A DNA stretch of 26,231 nt from a virus. Below the pieces are notes generated by a model that saw only the letters and a list, made by a program, of their open reading frames with translations, searched no databases and was not told where the DNA came from. The position numbers and the translations under genes are program-made. Shown here one piece after another: positions 6,757 through 19,889 of this stretch; position 1 is the stretch's first letter, and each line of letters starts with the position of its first letter. Location of the stretch: positions 1 to 26,231 of IMG/VR virus record IMGVR_UViG_3300007649_000014, one strand, 5' to 3'.

Positions 6757-8779
6757 TTTCGGTCTCTTTAGATGTGTTTATTGTAAATTGTGCTTGACCG
6801 CTAACTGGTGAATATTTGATTTCTTGAATCCAACCATTGCGTATCTTTTGCCCATCCATTGCAAATTTAACACTTCCTATCGGATTATTTAAAATTCTTA
6901 ACCATTCAGGTTCAGTCATCGGGTAATTAAATTTATGCACTTTAACGCGCAAGTCATCAGGATTAACATTGTTAAAAATACCACCAAAAATAGAAGTCGA
7001 TGTACATTTTAAATATGTCGCTAATTCATCTAACTCAATTCCCCAGGTAACATCACCGGTAGCTACATTCCAGTAATGAAAATTATAATTATATCCAGTA
7101 CCATTAGGTATTGAACGCATCACCAATTTAATATAATCACCTTGCACCATACTAATAGTTAAATTAGGAATTGATGCGGAATAATTACCACTACTTGCAC
7201 TAAACGCCCAAAAATGATCATCAGGATTTGAGCCGTAAAAATTATTACGAGTTCCAAAATGAAACCTTTGTTTTTCATTCCCAGCCGAATCATAATGAAC
7301 TATGTAATGTTGGAACATAACTATACTTGTACCTGTGCTAATGCTACCGGTTTGAAAAGTTATTTGTGCGTCAAAATTATAAACCGCAGTTTCAGCCGCC
7401 GTATAACGATGCGTTGTAGTATCAAAGTAATTGCCATAATCATAGTTTTCAGCATTTAAAAAATCATCTTTTTCATCTACTGTATTTAATACCCCAGCGC
7501 CGTGTGCATTATCCGTACTTACTGGTGTATTTGCGTAAGCATATACTTGACCAGTTGTGGAGGATGCATAATAACTTGCTAACTCACTCGATAAATTTTG
7601 ACCATACCTTTGTGAGATGTGATCATTATTAAGCAATTCATTATAATAATAACTATCAGGAACTGTATTAATAAAATTGCTATTAGTAGTGCGCCCAGTA
7701 GTAAATGTTAAACTTTCAGTAGATAGCATTACAATATCACTATCATAACTTTGGTCTAAATTCTGAACCATCTTTTCAATCAAATTACTACTCACTATCC
7801 AGTTACCGGTAAGGTCTAATGTCAAGTCCAGGTTACAAGTTCCCAAAAGGTGAAACTCCTCTTCTCTAAATCCATAAAAAGTAATTGCTTCAGGGAATTT
7901 ATAAATCGAATTATAATCTACTGGTGAACCAAACTTAACCTTTGCATATAATTTATCAGTATCAAAACTTGTAATAATTTCATCTATTGCTACTGCATTA
8001 AATATTTCAGATGCATTGTAACGATATTCCGCTGGTTCAATCCTTATTACCGGTTTACCAACTTTACCATATGGGTCTTCTACCGTTAAAATTAATGGAA
8101 TGCGTTTACTTACTTCCTGGTATAATTCTAAGAAACTAAATTGCACCCATCTACCAGTTAATGCGCTAACCGTACCTTTACGCATACGATAACCAGTAGT
8201 CAAAGCAATGCCACCATAAAAACCAGTATAGGCAAAAGCATCACTTTTAAAGTCAATAGTGTTATCGGACATAAAGCCAATCATGTAGTTAAAAGCATCC
8301 CACACTCTCGCACATTCTACCTCATATTTAAATGAATTATTAATAACACTATAAACATCTACCGTGTATTGGTTGCAGTTGGCAAGTACCTCACCATTCT
8401 TTGTCTTACCACTATCCAGTGCGGTCTTAATATTTTTGTTGTTATTAATCTTTGCAAAAAACGATTTATCTACAACCTTACATTTTACCGTACAAGTCCT
8501 TTCGTTAACCTCGCAGTCAGTTAGCAATATCGCACCACTAAAAATTAAATAGTCAATCTTATCGCAAGTGCTAAATATTTCGCAAGGTATACTTTCACAA
8601 AAGCTATCATTTTGAATCTTATCATTTAAATAAGCAAATCCACTACCATCAAACTCCAAAGTATATTCCTGATATTGTAAGAATAGGTTATATTGCTTAT
8701 CAGTTTTAATAGTGAAATTTATATCTTGCCAGTTTAGCGCCGGGTCAACCTCTATATAGTCAAGTGTAAACTTTATCAT
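6746..8779 (-). CDS. Tail baseplate/hub protein with a C1q-like insert
   Basis: A 677-residue protein directly after the tape measure, the place of distal-tail and hub proteins in siphoviruses. Residues 1-330 are mixed beta and alpha, with a cysteine-rich patch (C61, C66, C72, C89, C96, C100). About residues 448-585 show a jelly-roll rhythm (YFDTTTHRYTA, AVYNFDAQITFQ, FQHYIVHYD, SMVQGDYIKLVMRS) like C1q/TNF-type domains in tail and host-binding proteins. The last 90 residues return to a framework ending PEWLRILNNPIGSVKFAMDG and WIQEIKYSP. It overlaps the tape measure by 4 bases and the next tail gene by 11. Hub, Dit-like and Tal-like roles cannot be told apart from sequence alone. Confidence 0.65.
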   Translation of the reverse strand: MIKFTLDYIEVDPALNWQDINFTIKTDKQYNLFLQYQEYTLEFDGSGFAYLNDKIQNDSFCESIPCEIFSTCDKIDYLIFSGAILLTDCEVNERTCTVKCKVVDKSFFAKINNNKNIKTALDSGKTKNGEVLANCNQYTVDVYSVINNSFKYEVECARVWDAFNYMIGFMSDNTIDFKSDAFAYTGFYGGIALTTGYRMRKGTVSALTGRWVQFSFLELYQEVSKRIPLILTVEDPYGKVGKPVIRIEPAEYRYNASEIFNAVAIDEIITSFDTDKLYAKVKFGSPVDYNSIYKFPEAITFYGFREEEFHLLGTCNLDLTLDLTGNWIVSSNLIEKMVQNLDQSYDSDIVMLSTESLTFTTGRTTNSNFINTVPDSYYYNELLNNDHISQRYGQNLSSELASYYASSTTGQVYAYANTPVSTDNAHGAGVLNTVDEKDDFLNAENYDYGNYFDTTTHRYTAAETAVYNFDAQITFQTGSISTGTSIVMFQHYIVHYDSAGNEKQRFHFGTRNNFYGSNPDDHFWAFSASSGNYSASIPNLTISMVQGDYIKLVMRSIPNGTGYNYNFHYWNVATGDVTWGIELDELATYLKCTSTSIFGGIFNNVNPDDLRVKVHKFNYPMTEPEWLRILNNPIGSVKFAMDGQKIRNGWIQEIKYSPVSGQAQFTINTSKETENGN

Positions 8780-11238
8780 ATGATGTAACGATTATTAAAC
8801 CTACCACCAATCTCATTAGCTATTACTTTACCTATTGTTTGCGCATTCTCTACGGTCACCGTTCTATTTTTATTCATTACTCTTCCTAATGCTAATGGGT
8901 CAATGGTCGCTACTAACTCGCCTGAATTGCCTTTTCTATGCCCTCTAACAAACGAATTAATATCGGATGCGCTAATCTTTTGCTCGTAAATTGCTTTGAT
9001 TGTAGGCGCATATTTTTTGTTTATTGATGTTGGAATAACCGCTTCACCTGGTTGTAACATTGCCATTACACTATCTCTTCCCATATCCACACCAGGTACT
9101 GATAAAGTTCCTTTTTGATACTTAGGTAAAGGTGTAGCGATAATCTTTGCAAGGTTAGCACCTGCTACCGCAGTAGTTAAAGCAAGTACCGCCGGAATAG
9201 CCGTAGGAGGCGCTTTTAATGCATTGATTAAGGCAGCTGCAAAGTCAAGTGTTGCCTTAAAAATCGCAGCTTGTTTATCAGCCACATCAGCTTTGTGTTT
9301 AATCTCATTTAACTTTTTCTGATATTGCTCCTCACTAATTAAACCTTTGTCTTTTTGCTTTTTTAATTCAGCCTCTTCCGCACTTAATTGTTGGCGTGTA
9401 ATATCTAAACCGATATCTGCAAAGCTACTCGCCGCCCCAACTATTGCATCCTTAACCGCTAACTCAGTAGCTAATCTTTTCTCGGCATTTTTCTCCGCGT
9501 CCTCAGTAGTTTTTTTCTGCGCATCTTGCTTAACCTTCTCCGCGTCAACTGTTGCCTTAGTAATCTTATCAGTTATCTCTAATTGTTTAATCTGATATTC
9601 AGTATTTATACGCTCACGCTCAGTTGCAGTTAAAGTTTCATCAGCAAGAATTTTTGCATACTTGTCATCCAAAGCATCCATCTCTATCTGCGCTTGTTTA
9701 ACCGGGTCAGCTTCTTGTTTTAATCGTAAGGCAATCTTAGCATCAATTAATTTTTGCTCTTCCGCTAATTCCTTATCACAACTTGCTTGTGTTATCTTAT
9801 CTTGTTGAGCGGATAGGTTTGATCGTGTTGCATAATATTGTTCCCATAGTGTAGATAATTCTAATGCCGTACCTTTGTTTGCCTCCAGAAATCCTTTCTC
9901 TAAAGTGTAATTCTCAACGGCAAATTGTTGCTGAAGTTCTAACTTCTTTAATGGGTCTTTCTCCTCATTAACTTGGTTCTGTTGCTTCAACTTTAAAAGA
10001 TTCATCTCAGCTTGGAATGCAGCTTTCTTTTCTGCTAACGCTTTCTCAGCATCCGCTTTACGCTTCTTTGCATTCTTATCTCTCTCCTCATTCTCTTTAT
10101 CGGTAGTTTCTTTGTCTATTCTTTGAACATTATAATTATATGCCTCAACAATTTTACCTTTACGTTTAGTAAAAGAATCAAAATCTTTTTGAGCAGTTTC
10201 AAATTTTGCAGAAGCATCTGCTATTTCTTGATCACTTGGTGCAATTATTCCACCTAATGGACCAGCATTTAATGATAAAGCTTTCTTTTTAATTAATGCT
10301 TCAAAAATCTTCTCTTGCTCTTTTAATGTTTTATTAGCCTTTTGAACCTCAACATCATTATCTGTAATTTGCTTGTTGTATTCACGCTCTAAAGCATTAC
10401 GTTTAGCGGTAAAGTCATCTATACCACCCATTGCTAAACGCATCGCATCATATGCATCAGCTGCCTCATCGGTACTATCTCGTAATGCTTTCTGACCTTC
10501 CGTTAATTCATTAATCTTAATAGTCGCTTCATCTGCGTCACCACTTAATGCATAAATAGCAGCACCTAATGCTACAACACCGGTAATAATTAAAAATGCC
10601 GGGTTAGCTAATAACGATGCATTTAATGCACCACTTGCTACTGTTGCCTCAGTTTCCGCAACCGCTAATTCTTGGTTAGCAACTGCATTAGCCTGGGTAG
10701 CTGCATTAGTTAAACCTAATACAATTTGTAAATCTTTAAACGCATCCTTCATACCCATTAGGCTATTCAAACCTTGGGCAAAGTTTAATGCACCTTGTAA
10801 CTTTTGTGCAACTTCTTGCGCTCTTTTACTTTCACCTCCAAATAATTGCACAGCACCGGTTAAACCTTGGAATGCACCCAATGTACCGCTCAACACATTT
10901 GATAATGCGGTAAATTTAGCTTCAGGATTTAAAGCCTTAACGCGATTATTAAAGTCATCTAAATCATCTGTTAATTGAGCAACTTTTTGCGCTGCTGATA
11001 TTGCCTCTTTGCTACTTGCGCCGAACTTCTCAGCCATTGCTTGAGCTTCAACCTTAGCTTCTTTAATTTGAGTTTTTAAACTCTTAAAAGCTTTATCTAC
11101 TTTGTCCGCCTCTTTTTCCGTCTCCAACAAATTTTTATTTAAATCGTCAGATGCCTTTGCGGTCTTATTAAATTCATCAGTAAGGCTCTTTAGTCCAGCC
11201 GTGTTACCAACTACTTCTATTACTATTTTATCAGCCAT
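8776..11238 (-). CDS. Tail tape measure protein
   Basis: An 820-residue protein, long, repetitive and rich in A, K, E and Q, with extensive coiled coil at about 20-105 and 380-640. It has a hydrophobic segment at about 209-232 (NPAFLIITGVVALGAAIYAL) and a second hydrophobic stretch in the last 180 residues, followed by KYQKGTLSVPGVDMGRDSVM and QPGEAVIP, a pattern common at the ends of Bacteroidota phage tape measures. These proteins set tail length and enter the host envelope during DNA ejection. At about 1.5 angstrom per residue the tail would be near 120 nm (inference). No lytic domain is visible. The start overlaps the frameshift product upstream by 8 bases, and the 3' end overlaps the next tail gene by 4. 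Confidence 0.9.
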   Translation of the reverse strand: MADKIVIEVVGNTAGLKSLTDEFNKTAKASDDLNKNLLETEKEADKVDKAFKSLKTQIKEAKVEAQAMAEKFGASSKEAISAAQKVAQLTDDLDDFNNRVKALNPEAKFTALSNVLSGTLGAFQGLTGAVQLFGGESKRAQEVAQKLQGALNFAQGLNSLMGMKDAFKDLQIVLGLTNAATQANAVANQELAVAETEATVASGALNASLLANPAFLIITGVVALGAAIYALSGDADEATIKINELTEGQKALRDSTDEAADAYDAMRLAMGGIDDFTAKRNALEREYNKQITDNDVEVQKANKTLKEQEKIFEALIKKKALSLNAGPLGGIIAPSDQEIADASAKFETAQKDFDSFTKRKGKIVEAYNYNVQRIDKETTDKENEERDKNAKKRKADAEKALAEKKAAFQAEMNLLKLKQQNQVNEEKDPLKKLELQQQFAVENYTLEKGFLEANKGTALELSTLWEQYYATRSNLSAQQDKITQASCDKELAEEQKLIDAKIALRLKQEADPVKQAQIEMDALDDKYAKILADETLTATERERINTEYQIKQLEITDKITKATVDAEKVKQDAQKKTTEDAEKNAEKRLATELAVKDAIVGAASSFADIGLDITRQQLSAEEAELKKQKDKGLISEEQYQKKLNEIKHKADVADKQAAIFKATLDFAAALINALKAPPTAIPAVLALTTAVAGANLAKIIATPLPKYQKGTLSVPGVDMGRDSVMAMLQPGEAVIPTSINKKYAPTIKAIYEQKISASDINSFVRGHRKGNSGELVATIDPLALGRVMNKNRTVTVENAQTIGKVIANEIGGRFNNRYII

Positions 11239-11922
11239 TTTGTTTATACATATCTTCGACTAACAATAAATACTCAATTAAGGAAAGCTTCCGGTAATCT
11301 ACACCATATTGCTTCCCAATCTTTATTCCCGTAACAAAATTTGCTTCAAGGTTTCGTTGGATGTCCAACCAATAACTTTGGCTAATTGCTTCTTTTCGGT
11401 CTTTTCTATCAGGCTCAGACATTTCTCCAAATCGGTTGCTGATATAGCTGGTAAGGGAAATATGTGCCTTAAAGCAATTGGTACATTGCAAAAAAAAACC
11501 TCTTTGTCCTCCACATTGTCCTTCCAAAACTTAATTTTCTTTTCAGCATACTTAGCATCGTATACATACGGCGATTCGTGTTCATCAAAGAATGCAACCC
11601 CAGCCATTTTATAAAGTAATTCAGCAGTTGGTACAATCCAGTTTAAACGCTCTTTAATCATAATAACCAACTCGCCAACCTTCATAATATCTATCTGACC
11701 ATTTTTACCGCTCATCCATTCATACATCACTTCAATAAACGCTTTCAAATGATCATTAGTCATTCGATTATTCCATTCATCATATACTGCTAACGCTTGA
11801 AATCCTCGCTCGGTAAACGTGTTAAAACTATCTTGTAAACCATAATACTGCACACCGCCAACAGTGAATGCTGGAACTATTGTGTGACCTTCGTGTAACT
11901 GCCAATTAATTACTTTGTCCAT
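11231..11922 (-). CDS. Tape-measure chaperone, predicted -1 frameshift (GT-like) product
   Basis: If ribosomes slip back one base on the nine-T run at 11498-11490, the upstream 199-residue reading frame continues into a second frame that stays open to 11231. The result would be a protein of about 230 residues: 144 from the zero frame, then 86 starting LQCTNCFKAHIS and ending LLLVEDMYKQNG. This copies the gpG/gpGT arrangement of lambda and many siphoviruses, in which a minor frameshift product made just before the tape measure gene recruits the tail tube protein. The stop overlaps the tape measure start by 8 bases. Alternatively the downstream part is a separate 63-residue protein started at the ATG at 11422 (MSEPDRKDRK). 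The frame switch is inferred. Confidence 0.6.
11323..11922 (-). CDS. Tape-measure chaperone, zero-frame (G-like) product
   Basis: A 199-residue protein beginning MDKVINWQLH. Residues 50-110 are helical (YDEWNNRMTNDHLKAF, IKERLNWIVPTAELLYKMAG), and a charged helical end includes LIEKTEKKQL. It sits two gene lengths upstream of nothing but the tape measure, the standard place for tail-assembly chaperones, which coat the tape measure before the tube forms. It contains the nine-T run at codons 142-145. Its C-terminal 55 residues lie over the alternative frame, a longer overlap than usual for G/GT pairs, which is why the frameshift is not certain. It overlaps the preceding gene by 17 bases. Confidence 0.7.
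   Translation of the reverse strand: MDKVINWQLHEGHTIVPAFTVGGVQYYGLQDSFNTFTERGFQALAVYDEWNNRMTNDHLKAFIEVMYEWMSGKNGQIDIMKVGELVIMIKERLNWIVPTAELLYKMAGVAFFDEHESPYVYDAKYAEKKIKFWKDNVEDKEVFFCNVPIALRHIFPLPAISATDLEKCLSLIEKTEKKQLAKVIGWTSNETLKQILLRE
11490..11498 (-). promoter_or_regulatory. Nine-T slippery run, candidate -1 frameshift site
   Basis: In the zero frame the codons read GTT TTT TTT TGC. This contains T TTT TTT, a valid X XXY YYZ slippery heptamer in which both the P-site and A-site tRNAs can re-pair after a one-base slip. The slip moves translation to TTG CAA TGT, the frame that stays open to 11231. I did not find an obvious strong pseudoknot downstream by eye. Confidence 0.6.
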
Positions 11923-13436: not shown

Positions 13437-14666
13437 TTACGCATAAATTTTAATAAATTGGTGATGAAAAGCAAAACAATAATAACGAAAGCAATCTAAA
13501 AAATCGGACATCTTAAACTCATTACTTCTATCCTTTTTTATGTCACCTTCATTATCCACTTCCACATACTTCAAGTCCTTTATCAACCTGGCGCAACTAT
13601 CGTTAATCTTAACATCAGCCTTTTGCAATAAGCTATTCATAAGCACTCGCGTATCAGCTACGGATGGATTAATGTTACCTACCTTCATTTGATTATCACC
13701 TAACATCAGTTTTTGCTTTATAACCGTGTAATAGTTATAGTTACCTTTAGTTAATGCCGACCTATTACGCCCAGTAGCATCACCGGTAATCATCAGCGGT
13801 ACATTGTGAAAGGTAGCAAGTAACAAATCGCACAATTGAAAGATATCAGAGTTATGTAGCGCAAATTCCTGAATGATGCGGATAGTGTGACCATTACTTT
13901 GCCCAGCAATGCACGTTATCGGGTCTTTGTTGAAGTCAAATGATAAAAGCACCGGTAAGGATGGGTCATAAGTCAAACCACTTGTAACGTGCTTATTTGC
14001 GTCAAATGCATATGCAAATGGATTATTAGTTACATCCACATCCTCCGCTAATATCTCACATCTAAAGCTTAACTCATCCATTGTTTGCCGTATCTCTTCA
14101 ATCTCATCACGATCAATAAACGGATTATCGTAGGTAGATAAATTAAATGATGCCCAATTATCTTTTTTATTGGCATGAAGTTGCTTGAAATAGGTCTGAC
14201 CAAACTTAGGCGTTGAAAGAATCCAAGCATCACCTTTAAAGTCCATCAGTGTAGGTAAGATAGTATTTTGCCATGCATCCTTAAACTTCTTTGCCTTCTC
14301 AGCCTCATCCACTATCACACGCGCATACTTGCGACCTCGCCCACTATCAGGATTGTCCATCGACCAAAAGTCAATCACACCGCCGGTAATAAGCTTTATC
14401 TGTTTTGTCTGCTCATTCTTTTCCGCAATAATAGGTTGTAGCCTTGTCTTAACTTCAGACCACACATCAGAGAGGTCGTTATAAGTAGGAGTAAAGTAAG
14501 CAACAAAACCGCCAGTAATGGCAATCCGAGGAATAAGATAATTGATAGCAAAAGTCGTTTTGCCAAACCTTCTACCAATTTTAAGGACATTAAACCTTTT
14601 TGAATTATTAAGTACATTTAATTGTCCCTGGTGTAATTTCTTTAAATGAATCTCAATGTCACTCAT
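13437..14666 (-). CDS. terL: Terminase large subunit
   Basis: A 409-residue packaging motor. The ATPase half has Walker A GRRFGKT (residues 31-37) and Walker B RVIVDE (116-121, with the catalytic Glu121), and YARVIVDEAEKAKKF is typical of TerL. The nuclease half has the RNase H-like acidic residues: LSFDF (Asp244), MITGDATG (Asp296) and MSDFLDCFRY (Asp388 and Asp391). It cuts concatemeric DNA and pumps it through the portal. It overlaps the small terminase by 8 bases. A nested frame at 14396-14617 has no support and is a shadow. Confidence 0.95.
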   Translation of the reverse strand: MSDIEIHLKKLHQGQLNVLNNSKRFNVLKIGRRFGKTTFAINYLIPRIAITGGFVAYFTPTYNDLSDVWSEVKTRLQPIIAEKNEQTKQIKLITGGVIDFWSMDNPDSGRGRKYARVIVDEAEKAKKFKDAWQNTILPTLMDFKGDAWILSTPKFGQTYFKQLHANKKDNWASFNLSTYDNPFIDRDEIEEIRQTMDELSFRCEILAEDVDVTNNPFAYAFDANKHVTSGLTYDPSLPVLLSFDFNKDPITCIAGQSNGHTIRIIQEFALHNSDIFQLCDLLLATFHNVPLMITGDATGRNRSALTKGNYNYYTVIKQKLMLGDNQMKVGNINPSVADTRVLMNSLLQKADVKINDSCARLIKDLKYVEVDNEGDIKKDRSNEFKMSDFLDCFRYYCFAFHHQFIKIYA

Positions 14667-17605: not shown

Positions 17606-19236
17606 TGTATACGATGAAATAATGCGTAAATATTACCAATTGTTGGATTGAGCGCAGTAAGTGAACTGGCATTAGCCGGTAACGCACCATATGATGCTCT
17701 CGTTCCATTAATATAAGTTCCTAAAGATGTACCACCAGCGGATGCTAAACCTATTACTTGGGCAAAGTTAGTAGTAGTTAAACTTCTAATGCCGTGAGCC
17801 GTTGCACTACTTGTACTGAATGCAGTAAAGTATAATCCTGGTGTTAATGTAATTGCAGTGCCTGGTGTGAATGTTTTAACGCCAATTGTAGCAGCGGATA
17901 TGTCACCACTATCTACTACCAATGTAGTAGGTACTACCGTAGTAGCATCCCCATTATAAATCCCAAATCGTAAGTTACTTCCTACCGCACCAGCTGATGT
18001 TACCTCAACGGCTATTTGATCAATAACAAGAGTTTTATGAACCGGAAAAGGAACTAAAAAAACTGAAGGTGTTGAATGGTTGGTTGCAGTTAATGTATTT
18101 GTGTTATCACTTGGCACATACCACCTTTGGCTTTTACGATAATAATTACCACCTCTTCTATCTGTTAAGTATGTAGATAATCCTGATATATCAGTTGTGC
18201 TAAGTTGTTTAGTTTTCCATTGGCTATCCGATGAATCAAAATAAATCGTGTCATTATTGCTTGGTGATTGGGCCTGAACATTATGAAGTTCATCTAACTC
18301 ATAACCATTTTGTACTCTCACATACATTCTCCCAGCACTACCCGCACTTGCAGTAGTTACAAATCCCAAATAAACTAAATGATTAGGCGCATATGGTTTT
18401 ACTTTAGTTATTGCACCAGCAGTTGCACCAAGGTATACCGCATCACCATCTGACCAAGTGGAAATAGGTAATGTGCTTAGTCCGTCAAGTAATCCTTGAA
18501 GCATTATAAAACCTTTTTGACCTGATGCTATACTTGTTGACATTACTAAACCTACCGTTTGAGCCGATGTCGCATCACCTACGTTATTAGCTAACTTAAC
18601 AGTCATTCTATCACCTTGCCCACCAAACGCATATACCGGTTGCCCTTTTGTAATTGTTACGCTATCCGCATTAGTTACATAGGCTATTATAGTATTGGGT
18701 GAAGTTCCTATACACTGAAAGGAAGGTGTGCTTGAATTATAAACGACTAACATTTCAGCCCCGCCCTCAATATCACCTCCAATTAATGGTCCATCATTAT
18801 TACGATAAAGGTCTACCGCACCTAATGAATTTATGTTTAGCGTTGCACCAGTAGTATTACCATTTGTAAATCTAACCAAGTAAGAATCACCATCGGCATA
18901 TGAAGTAACACCAGTAATTGAAACAGTATACGTATCAGTACCTGATGCCGTGCCGTGCGGAATTTCACCAGCACTACCAGCTACGGCGTAATTTTCAATA
19001 ATTGCATCTACCGCAGTTTTTAAAAGTGAAGCACTTGCTACGCTTGGACTACTGCAATCTGTATAAAGTAATTTAAATTCTTGGCGGTATTTATTACTCT
19101 CGTATTCGTGCGTGTTAAAAATCAAATAGTCACCATCTACCGCAGTTGAACAATAAACCTTTTTAAATAAAAGTTCGTCAGTATCTACTATTACTTTAAC
19201 TTCCGTTGCAGTTTCATCTATAAATTGGTAACTCAT
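17602..19236 (-). CDS. Probable tail fibre or receptor-binding protein
   Basis: A 544-residue protein. The first part (about 1-60) is compact, then comes a T/S/G-rich beta region with a phage-fibre-type stretch (SYLVRFTNGNTTGATLNINS, about 118-137). The middle has ADSVTITKGQPVYAFGG and GDAVYLGATAGAITKVKP, and then ELDELHNVQAQSPSNNDTIYF, a segment common in tail fibres and appendages of Bacteroidota phages. The end is rich in T, A and S (about 370-530), as in trimeric fibre shafts and tips. No enzyme motif is evident. It lies between replication genes and nucleases, away from the other tail genes, where host-range genes are sometimes exchanged. Confidence 0.7.
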   Translation of the reverse strand: MSYQFIDETATEVKVIVDTDELLFKKVYCSTAVDGDYLIFNTHEYESNKYRQEFKLLYTDCSSPSVASASLLKTAVDAIIENYAVAGSAGEIPHGTASGTDTYTVSITGVTSYADGDSYLVRFTNGNTTGATLNINSLGAVDLYRNNDGPLIGGDIEGGAEMLVVYNSSTPSFQCIGTSPNTIIAYVTNADSVTITKGQPVYAFGGQGDRMTVKLANNVGDATSAQTVGLVMSTSIASGQKGFIMLQGLLDGLSTLPISTWSDGDAVYLGATAGAITKVKPYAPNHLVYLGFVTTASAGSAGRMYVRVQNGYELDELHNVQAQSPSNNDTIYFDSSDSQWKTKQLSTTDISGLSTYLTDRRGGNYYRKSQRWYVPSDNTNTLTATNHSTPSVFLVPFPVHKTLVIDQIAVEVTSAGAVGSNLRFGIYNGDATTVVPTTLVVDSGDISAATIGVKTFTPGTAITLTPGLYFTAFSTSSATAHGIRSLTTTNFAQVIGLASAGGTSLGTYINGTRASYGALPANASSLTALNPTIGNIYALFHRIQ

Positions 19237-19889
19237 TTCTTTTTACGATAAAATGTTAAACCTTTGTACGTTAACCCGTCTTTTATGTAGGTTTTCAAAG
19301 TTAATAAAGATTTTATAGAACCATCAAAAAAAAAGTCGTTAATGTCGTGAATATTGTTAAATACCATCCCGGTTTCAATATTTACCAAATCACCCGACCT
19401 ATTACCATATATTCCTAATCGCGCCTTATTACCCAACCTTCCCCTCGAAATATTAATTTTTGCTTCAGGTGATCTATAACCACGTGCGTTACCATTACCT
19501 TTCATACCATAACTTATACGCATCTTTGTTACTGCACTGGCTAACTTACCTAATTTGTAACTATTACCAAGTAATCGTTTTTGCTTTTTAATTGGGTCTT
19601 CTTGGACTATATGCCCACCTGGATGTACATTAACTAACTGACCACCGGTAATCCTTCTACCATAGTGCGCTATCCAGTATTTTTCTCGCTCTAAAATGTA
19701 TTTTTTGTCATCGCTTTCCTCCACAATCTCAAACGTGAAACCTCCTTTTGCAACTTCGTGCCAGGCGGAATTACGTTTATTTTCCTTATAAGCTCGATAA
19801 TACTTTTGAATACCATTTTTATTCCTTGCCTTGCCAATTCCAACATAAAAAACTTTTTTGTCCTGATAGTGTTTATAAAGAAACCACAT
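19233..19889 (-). CDS. GIY-YIG homing-type endonuclease
   Basis: A 218-residue protein. The N-terminal nuclease domain (1-80) contains FLYKHYQ, then VFYVGIGKAR (YVG in place of YIG), RAYKENKRNSAWHEV and the acidic catalytic patch ILEREKYWIAHYG (Glu67 or Glu69). The rest is a likely DNA-binding part with repeated NUMOD3-like units (ARGYRSPEAKINISRGRLGN, about 135-155) and a NUMOD1-like end (LVNIETGMVFNNIHDINDFF). It overlaps the helicase by 17 bases and the fibre by 4. Free-standing homing endonucleases copy themselves into neighbouring sites and often sit beside replication genes. It could also have been adopted for a phage function. Confidence 0.8.
   Translation of the reverse strand: MWFLYKHYQDKKVFYVGIGKARNKNGIQKYYRAYKENKRNSAWHEVAKGGFTFEIVEESDDKKYILEREKYWIAHYGRRITGGQLVNVHPGGHIVQEDPIKKQKRLLGNSYKLGKLASAVTKMRISYGMKGNGNARGYRSPEAKINISRGRLGNKARLGIYGNRSGDLVNIETGMVFNNIHDINDFFFDGSIKSLLTLKTYIKDGLTYKGLTFYRKKK

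Follow-up and report, generated by a model that had tools for sequence, protein, structure and literature searches.

A probable programmed -1 ribosomal frameshift in a putative tail-assembly chaperone family of uncultured phages

The gene located directly before the tape-measure gene in the virus record IMGVR_UViG_3300007649_000014 very probably has two readings, which diverge at one slippery T run and give a short and a long form of the same protein. The record comprises 26,231 bases, and this whole stretch of DNA is referred to here as the window. Judged from features conserved at the sequence level, the arrangement can with considerable confidence be assigned to programmed -1 ribosomal frameshifting of the lambda G/GT type; the protein family, putatively one of tail-assembly chaperones, is represented in neither Pfam nor PHROGs. 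The label of tape-measure chaperone is suggested by gene position and layout. The features involved are the following.

11323..11922, minus strand: zero-frame gene for a G-like protein of 199 aa, recognized as a reading frame with IMG/VR homologs
11491..11497, minus strand: slippery heptamer T_TTT_TTT in the zero frame, in-frame in 38/38 distinct relatives
11231..11497, minus strand: -1 frame extension, a T-like domain of 88 codons plus stop, open in 38/38
11323..11490, minus strand: dual-read overlap of 55 zero-frame codons plus stop, with reduced zero-frame synonymous change
11420..11422, minus strand: -1 frame ATG, candidate internal start for a 63-aa product, at an alignment column where some relatives lack ATG
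8776..11238, minus strand: tail length tape-measure gene, 820 aa, with PHROG tape-measure matches at E ~1e-4

Across the slip, the zero frame reads GTT TTT TTT TGC. The preliminary description had placed a nine-T run at 11498-11490 of the minus strand, and the run lies there, with the in-frame heptamer at 11497-11491 of the frame 11922-11323. The second frame, described as open for 98 codons, has this length when counted from a TTG (it is open from 11527), which corresponds to 88 codons when counting begins at the heptamer; with its end at 11231, it reaches 8 nt into the tape-measure gene, whose start is at 11238. The description is also correct for the junction FFLQCTN and for the ATG at 11422. 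The predicted frameshift product is 230 aa long, with EVFFLQCTNCFK as the predicted junction peptide; residues 1-144 are common to both forms, and residues 145-199 are specific to the short, 199-aa zero-frame protein.

In the proposed mechanism, the majority of ribosomes would synthesize the 199-aa protein, and a minority would slip back one base at T_TTT_TTT (11497-11491) to yield the 230-aa product, which would consist of residues 1-144 followed by an 86-residue helical domain read in the -1 frame, its stop overlapping the tape-measure start. We infer the ribosomal nature of the shift, its efficiency and the chaperone role; in that role, the short form would coat the tape measure, and the long form would recruit the tail-tube protein. 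As a shift site, U_UUU_UUU has been tested in E. coli, where it was weaker than A_AAA_AAG (PMC5009743).

Queries with the G protein and with the -1 frame protein led to the same seven IMG/VR contigs, and homologs of the zero-frame protein were found at more than 50 IMG/VR loci. The set was enlarged by terminase and G-protein alignments and then by an HMM scan of all loci, which reached lineages of ~27% identity. The resulting comparison set consists of 38 distinct copies from IMG/VR that span the site, with chaperone identity down to ~27%. The DNA alignment of the seven contigs found first shows a run of nine Ts in each, the -1 frame open in all of them, and hardly any variation between the run and the ATG at 11422. 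The check proposed in the preliminary description, on whether the slippery run and an open second frame persist among relatives, was carried out and revealed no exception among the 38 distinct sequences. Specifically, T_TTT_TTT occurs in the zero frame at homologous Phe-Phe codons in 38/38, the site occupying two adjacent columns of the alignment. What had been described as a nine-T site is thus kept as a slippery heptamer, and nine Ts are not its conserved part: the run is exactly seven T long in 27 of the 38 sequences (mostly GATTTTTTTATC) and nine T long in 11, window included. These two lengths point to the 7-nt ribosomal heptamer, and not the nine-T homopolymer, as the shared element. A T9 run by itself is not special in the window. 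There is one other in-frame run of this kind, at 19326-19334 close to the end of gene 19233-19889; its -1 frame closes two codons past the slip, and it can be taken as a negative control.

The distribution of run lengths also bears on transcriptional slippage, in which RNA polymerase would add one U at T9 and the ten-U mRNA would be translated straight into the second frame, giving the same protein. The exact count of nine in 11 of the 38 distinct sequences, among them the window, is consistent with this explanation, as is the run of L008/L021 (one contig), which is displaced by one base yet still contains nine T, with the heptamer in frame. It also counts in favor of slippage that, in many bacteria, selection against runs prone to slip becomes apparent at a length of nine; in some, slippage may happen on shorter runs (PMC1088944). 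However, 27 of the 38 sequences have the same layout with seven T only, and the in-frame heptamer is the element common to all. Transcriptional slippage is therefore an unlikely account of the arrangement, but it may contribute in the nine-T lineages, where it is a serious rival to a ribosomal shift.

Counted from the heptamer, the open -1 frame spans 85-99 codons in 38/38 sequences and extends 27-50 codons past the zero-frame stop; upstream of the heptamer it is closed within 0-3 codons in 28/38. The zero frame itself runs for 37-63 codons past the heptamer in the 38 distinct sequences, and the two products therefore differ in their C-termini. When the window's protein was re-drawn with synonymous codons, a heptamer with an open -1 overlap appeared in 0.035% of re-draws, and the same test on ten other proteins gave a heptamer with an open -1 frame in 0-2%. 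Encoding the zero-frame protein seldom leaves the -1 frame open by itself, and this is least clear in the short-overlap lineages. Within the -1 part, 8 residues are invariant in the 27 aligned, and the residues FF and RF, located between the slip and the ATG, are conserved.

Selection was estimated from ten disjoint pairs, which are not fully independent, with synonymous differences scored at identical-residue codons. Zero-frame synonymous change affects 39% of codons upstream of the slip versus 19% past it (MH z = -6.7), with 16% between the slip and the equivalent of the ATG at 11422 (p ~2e-9) and 21% beyond that point (p ~3e-5). The overlap is under dual-coding constraint, showing the low rates at all three codon positions that are expected when both frames are constrained. 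Past the zero-frame stop, substitutions track the codon positions of the -1 frame (74/40/151 at positions 1/2/3), for which NG86 dN/dS is ~0.09 across the ten pairs; this region evolves as -1 coding sequence.

Such constraint leaves little room for a homopolymer sequencing error or a decayed gene, according to which the true sequence would have eight or ten T and another relation between the frames. Although homopolymers are error-prone in principle, this explanation is extremely improbable, because the same T count recurs in contigs from several metagenomes and the overlap is constrained in both frames. Additionally, conservation of both frames extends to all 38 sequences, and 27 of these carry a run of seven T.

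The same data address an independent start, by which the second frame would be a separate 63-aa gene translated from the ATG at 11422 without any frameshift. The ATG is present in the window's clade and in several others, and in the window it is directly preceded by GGAG. This GGAG is weak evidence, because a Shine-Dalgarno motif precedes the start of 0/25 window genes (599-24541, minus strand). The strongest synonymous suppression falls between the slip and the ATG, where the conserved -1 residues FF and RF also lie. Moreover, ATG, GTG or TTG is missing at that place in many relatives, six distinct relatives have no such codon in the -1 frame anywhere from the heptamer to the zero-frame stop, and the codon found there is a consequence of a Cys codon conserved in the zero frame. 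The preliminary description regarded this start as a real alternative, a status it loses here, since it leaves the constraint from slip to ATG unexplained and its start codon is not conserved. Independent initiation as the sole route to the second frame is thus very improbable; the ATG at 11422 is not needed, and a minor start at this position is a candidate at most.

For the preferred reading, a -1 shift at the heptamer, possible stimulatory signals were sought on both sides of the slip. No conserved downstream RNA structure was found in the folds of 14 members or in the alignment fold. Candidates for a stem-loop or pseudoknot 3' of the slip gave z values of -1.5 to 1.1 in the 14 folds, except for one at -3.1; the alignment fold past the slip contains 5 pairs without compensatory changes, and a GCAGC/GCTGC hairpin occurs in some members of the large clade and is disrupted in others. 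Frameshift sites of phage tail genes are seldom accompanied by downstream structures, and for P2-like phages it is reported that none was found (PMC3091744). On the 5' side, AAGGAGG lies 16 nt before the heptamer and is invariant in the 27-member seven-T clade (L111, 4001-4573, and 26 others). It forms codons -8 to -6, and no Lys or Glu column upstream is invariant except those of its own Lys and Glu codons. As a Shine-Dalgarno-like stimulator it was set aside, given its long spacing, its absence from other clades and the scarcity of Shine-Dalgarno use above background, and it is retained as a lead only. The GGAGG located 10 nt 5' of the window's heptamer was also rejected, as L017, L018 and L021 do not have it. 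In the relatives, Shine-Dalgarno use is near background (15% versus 11%). The scarcity of Shine-Dalgarno motifs in the window and its relatives resembles the pattern of Bacteroidota, and it suggests a host of the Bacteroidota type.

Searches of Pfam, PHROG and PDB sequences gave no significant match for the window proteins, and 32 family members had no Pfam or PHROG match. The model of the zero-frame protein, of medium confidence (pLDDT 70, pTM 0.50), shows two strands followed by helices; for the -1 part, the model consists of helices (pLDDT 70), with the highest confidence in the second half. Fold searches with both parts returned nothing convincing: an annotated tail assembly chaperone at rank 3 was not significant (E 0.08, TM 0.27). 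Scans of bacterial genomes found no homolog, and searches of cultured phages revealed no significant counterpart for either the G protein or the tape measure. The large terminase (13437-14666) shares ~30% identity with its equivalents in cultured large phages of Rhizobium, Pseudomonas and Escherichia.

The putative chaperone gene stands directly before the tape measure in the window's clade and in three more divergent lineages (L044, L087/L072 and L046/L103/L060), and the -1 stop also falls 8 nt inside the tape-measure gene in L044 and in the close relatives L016/L018. The largest clade has a few genes between the T frame and the tape measure. Several intervening genes, some of them long, lie downstream of the T frame in L111, L116, L118, L120 and L142, which form part of the seven-T clade. 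Chaperones of the lambda G/GT type sit just after the major tail protein gene; their short form binds the tape measure and their long form the tail tube protein, and both are absent from the virion. A major tail protein gene was not found in the window, the upstream genes having no significant family match.

Gene finders would miss or split the long product, and the absence of the family from Pfam and PHROGs leaves these uncultured phages without an annotated tail chaperone. The conserved heptamer together with the dual-coded overlap offers a clean marker for finding the family. The long overlap also raises the question of whether the short form depends on having a tail of its own. There is perhaps an even chance that these phages, which lack Shine-Dalgarno signals, make short and long chaperones with two different, separately selected C-terminal tails from the same 110-190 bases.

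The claim that the layout copies lambda G/GT stands for gene order, heptamer and the 8-nt overlap, and fails for the length of the post-slip overlap. In both systems, two overlapping frames lie directly before the tape-measure gene, a -1 shift is assigned to an in-frame heptamer of the form X_XXY_YYZ, and the stop of the second frame overlaps the tape-measure start by 8 nt. The second frame codes (dN/dS ~0.09 past the zero-frame stop) and has no conserved start of its own, as in the lambda G/GT type. The lambda heptamer is G_GGA_AAG, compared with T_TTT_TTT here, and no sequence homology with the window proteins is detectable. Phage P2 uses TTTTTTG in the E/E+E' tail genes (PMC3091744). It shares with the present family a T-rich heptamer (T_TTT_TTG), a -1 shift without a stimulatory RNA structure having been found, and a -1 stop that overlaps the tape-measure start by 8 nt; its E protein has 91 aa, and no homology was detected. 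In the P2-like phage Smp131 and its relatives, longer T runs (T7G and T7C) have been proposed as slippery sites of tail genes (PMC3931495); judged by annotation, their proteins belong to a different family from the window's. Another difference concerns the zero frame past the slip, which was measured exactly for lambda and P2 only: it spans 5 codons in lambda and 6 in P2, in contrast to 55 in the window and 37-63 across its relatives. Frameshifted tail chaperones are an already known type, to which the family described here possibly adds an architectural variant.
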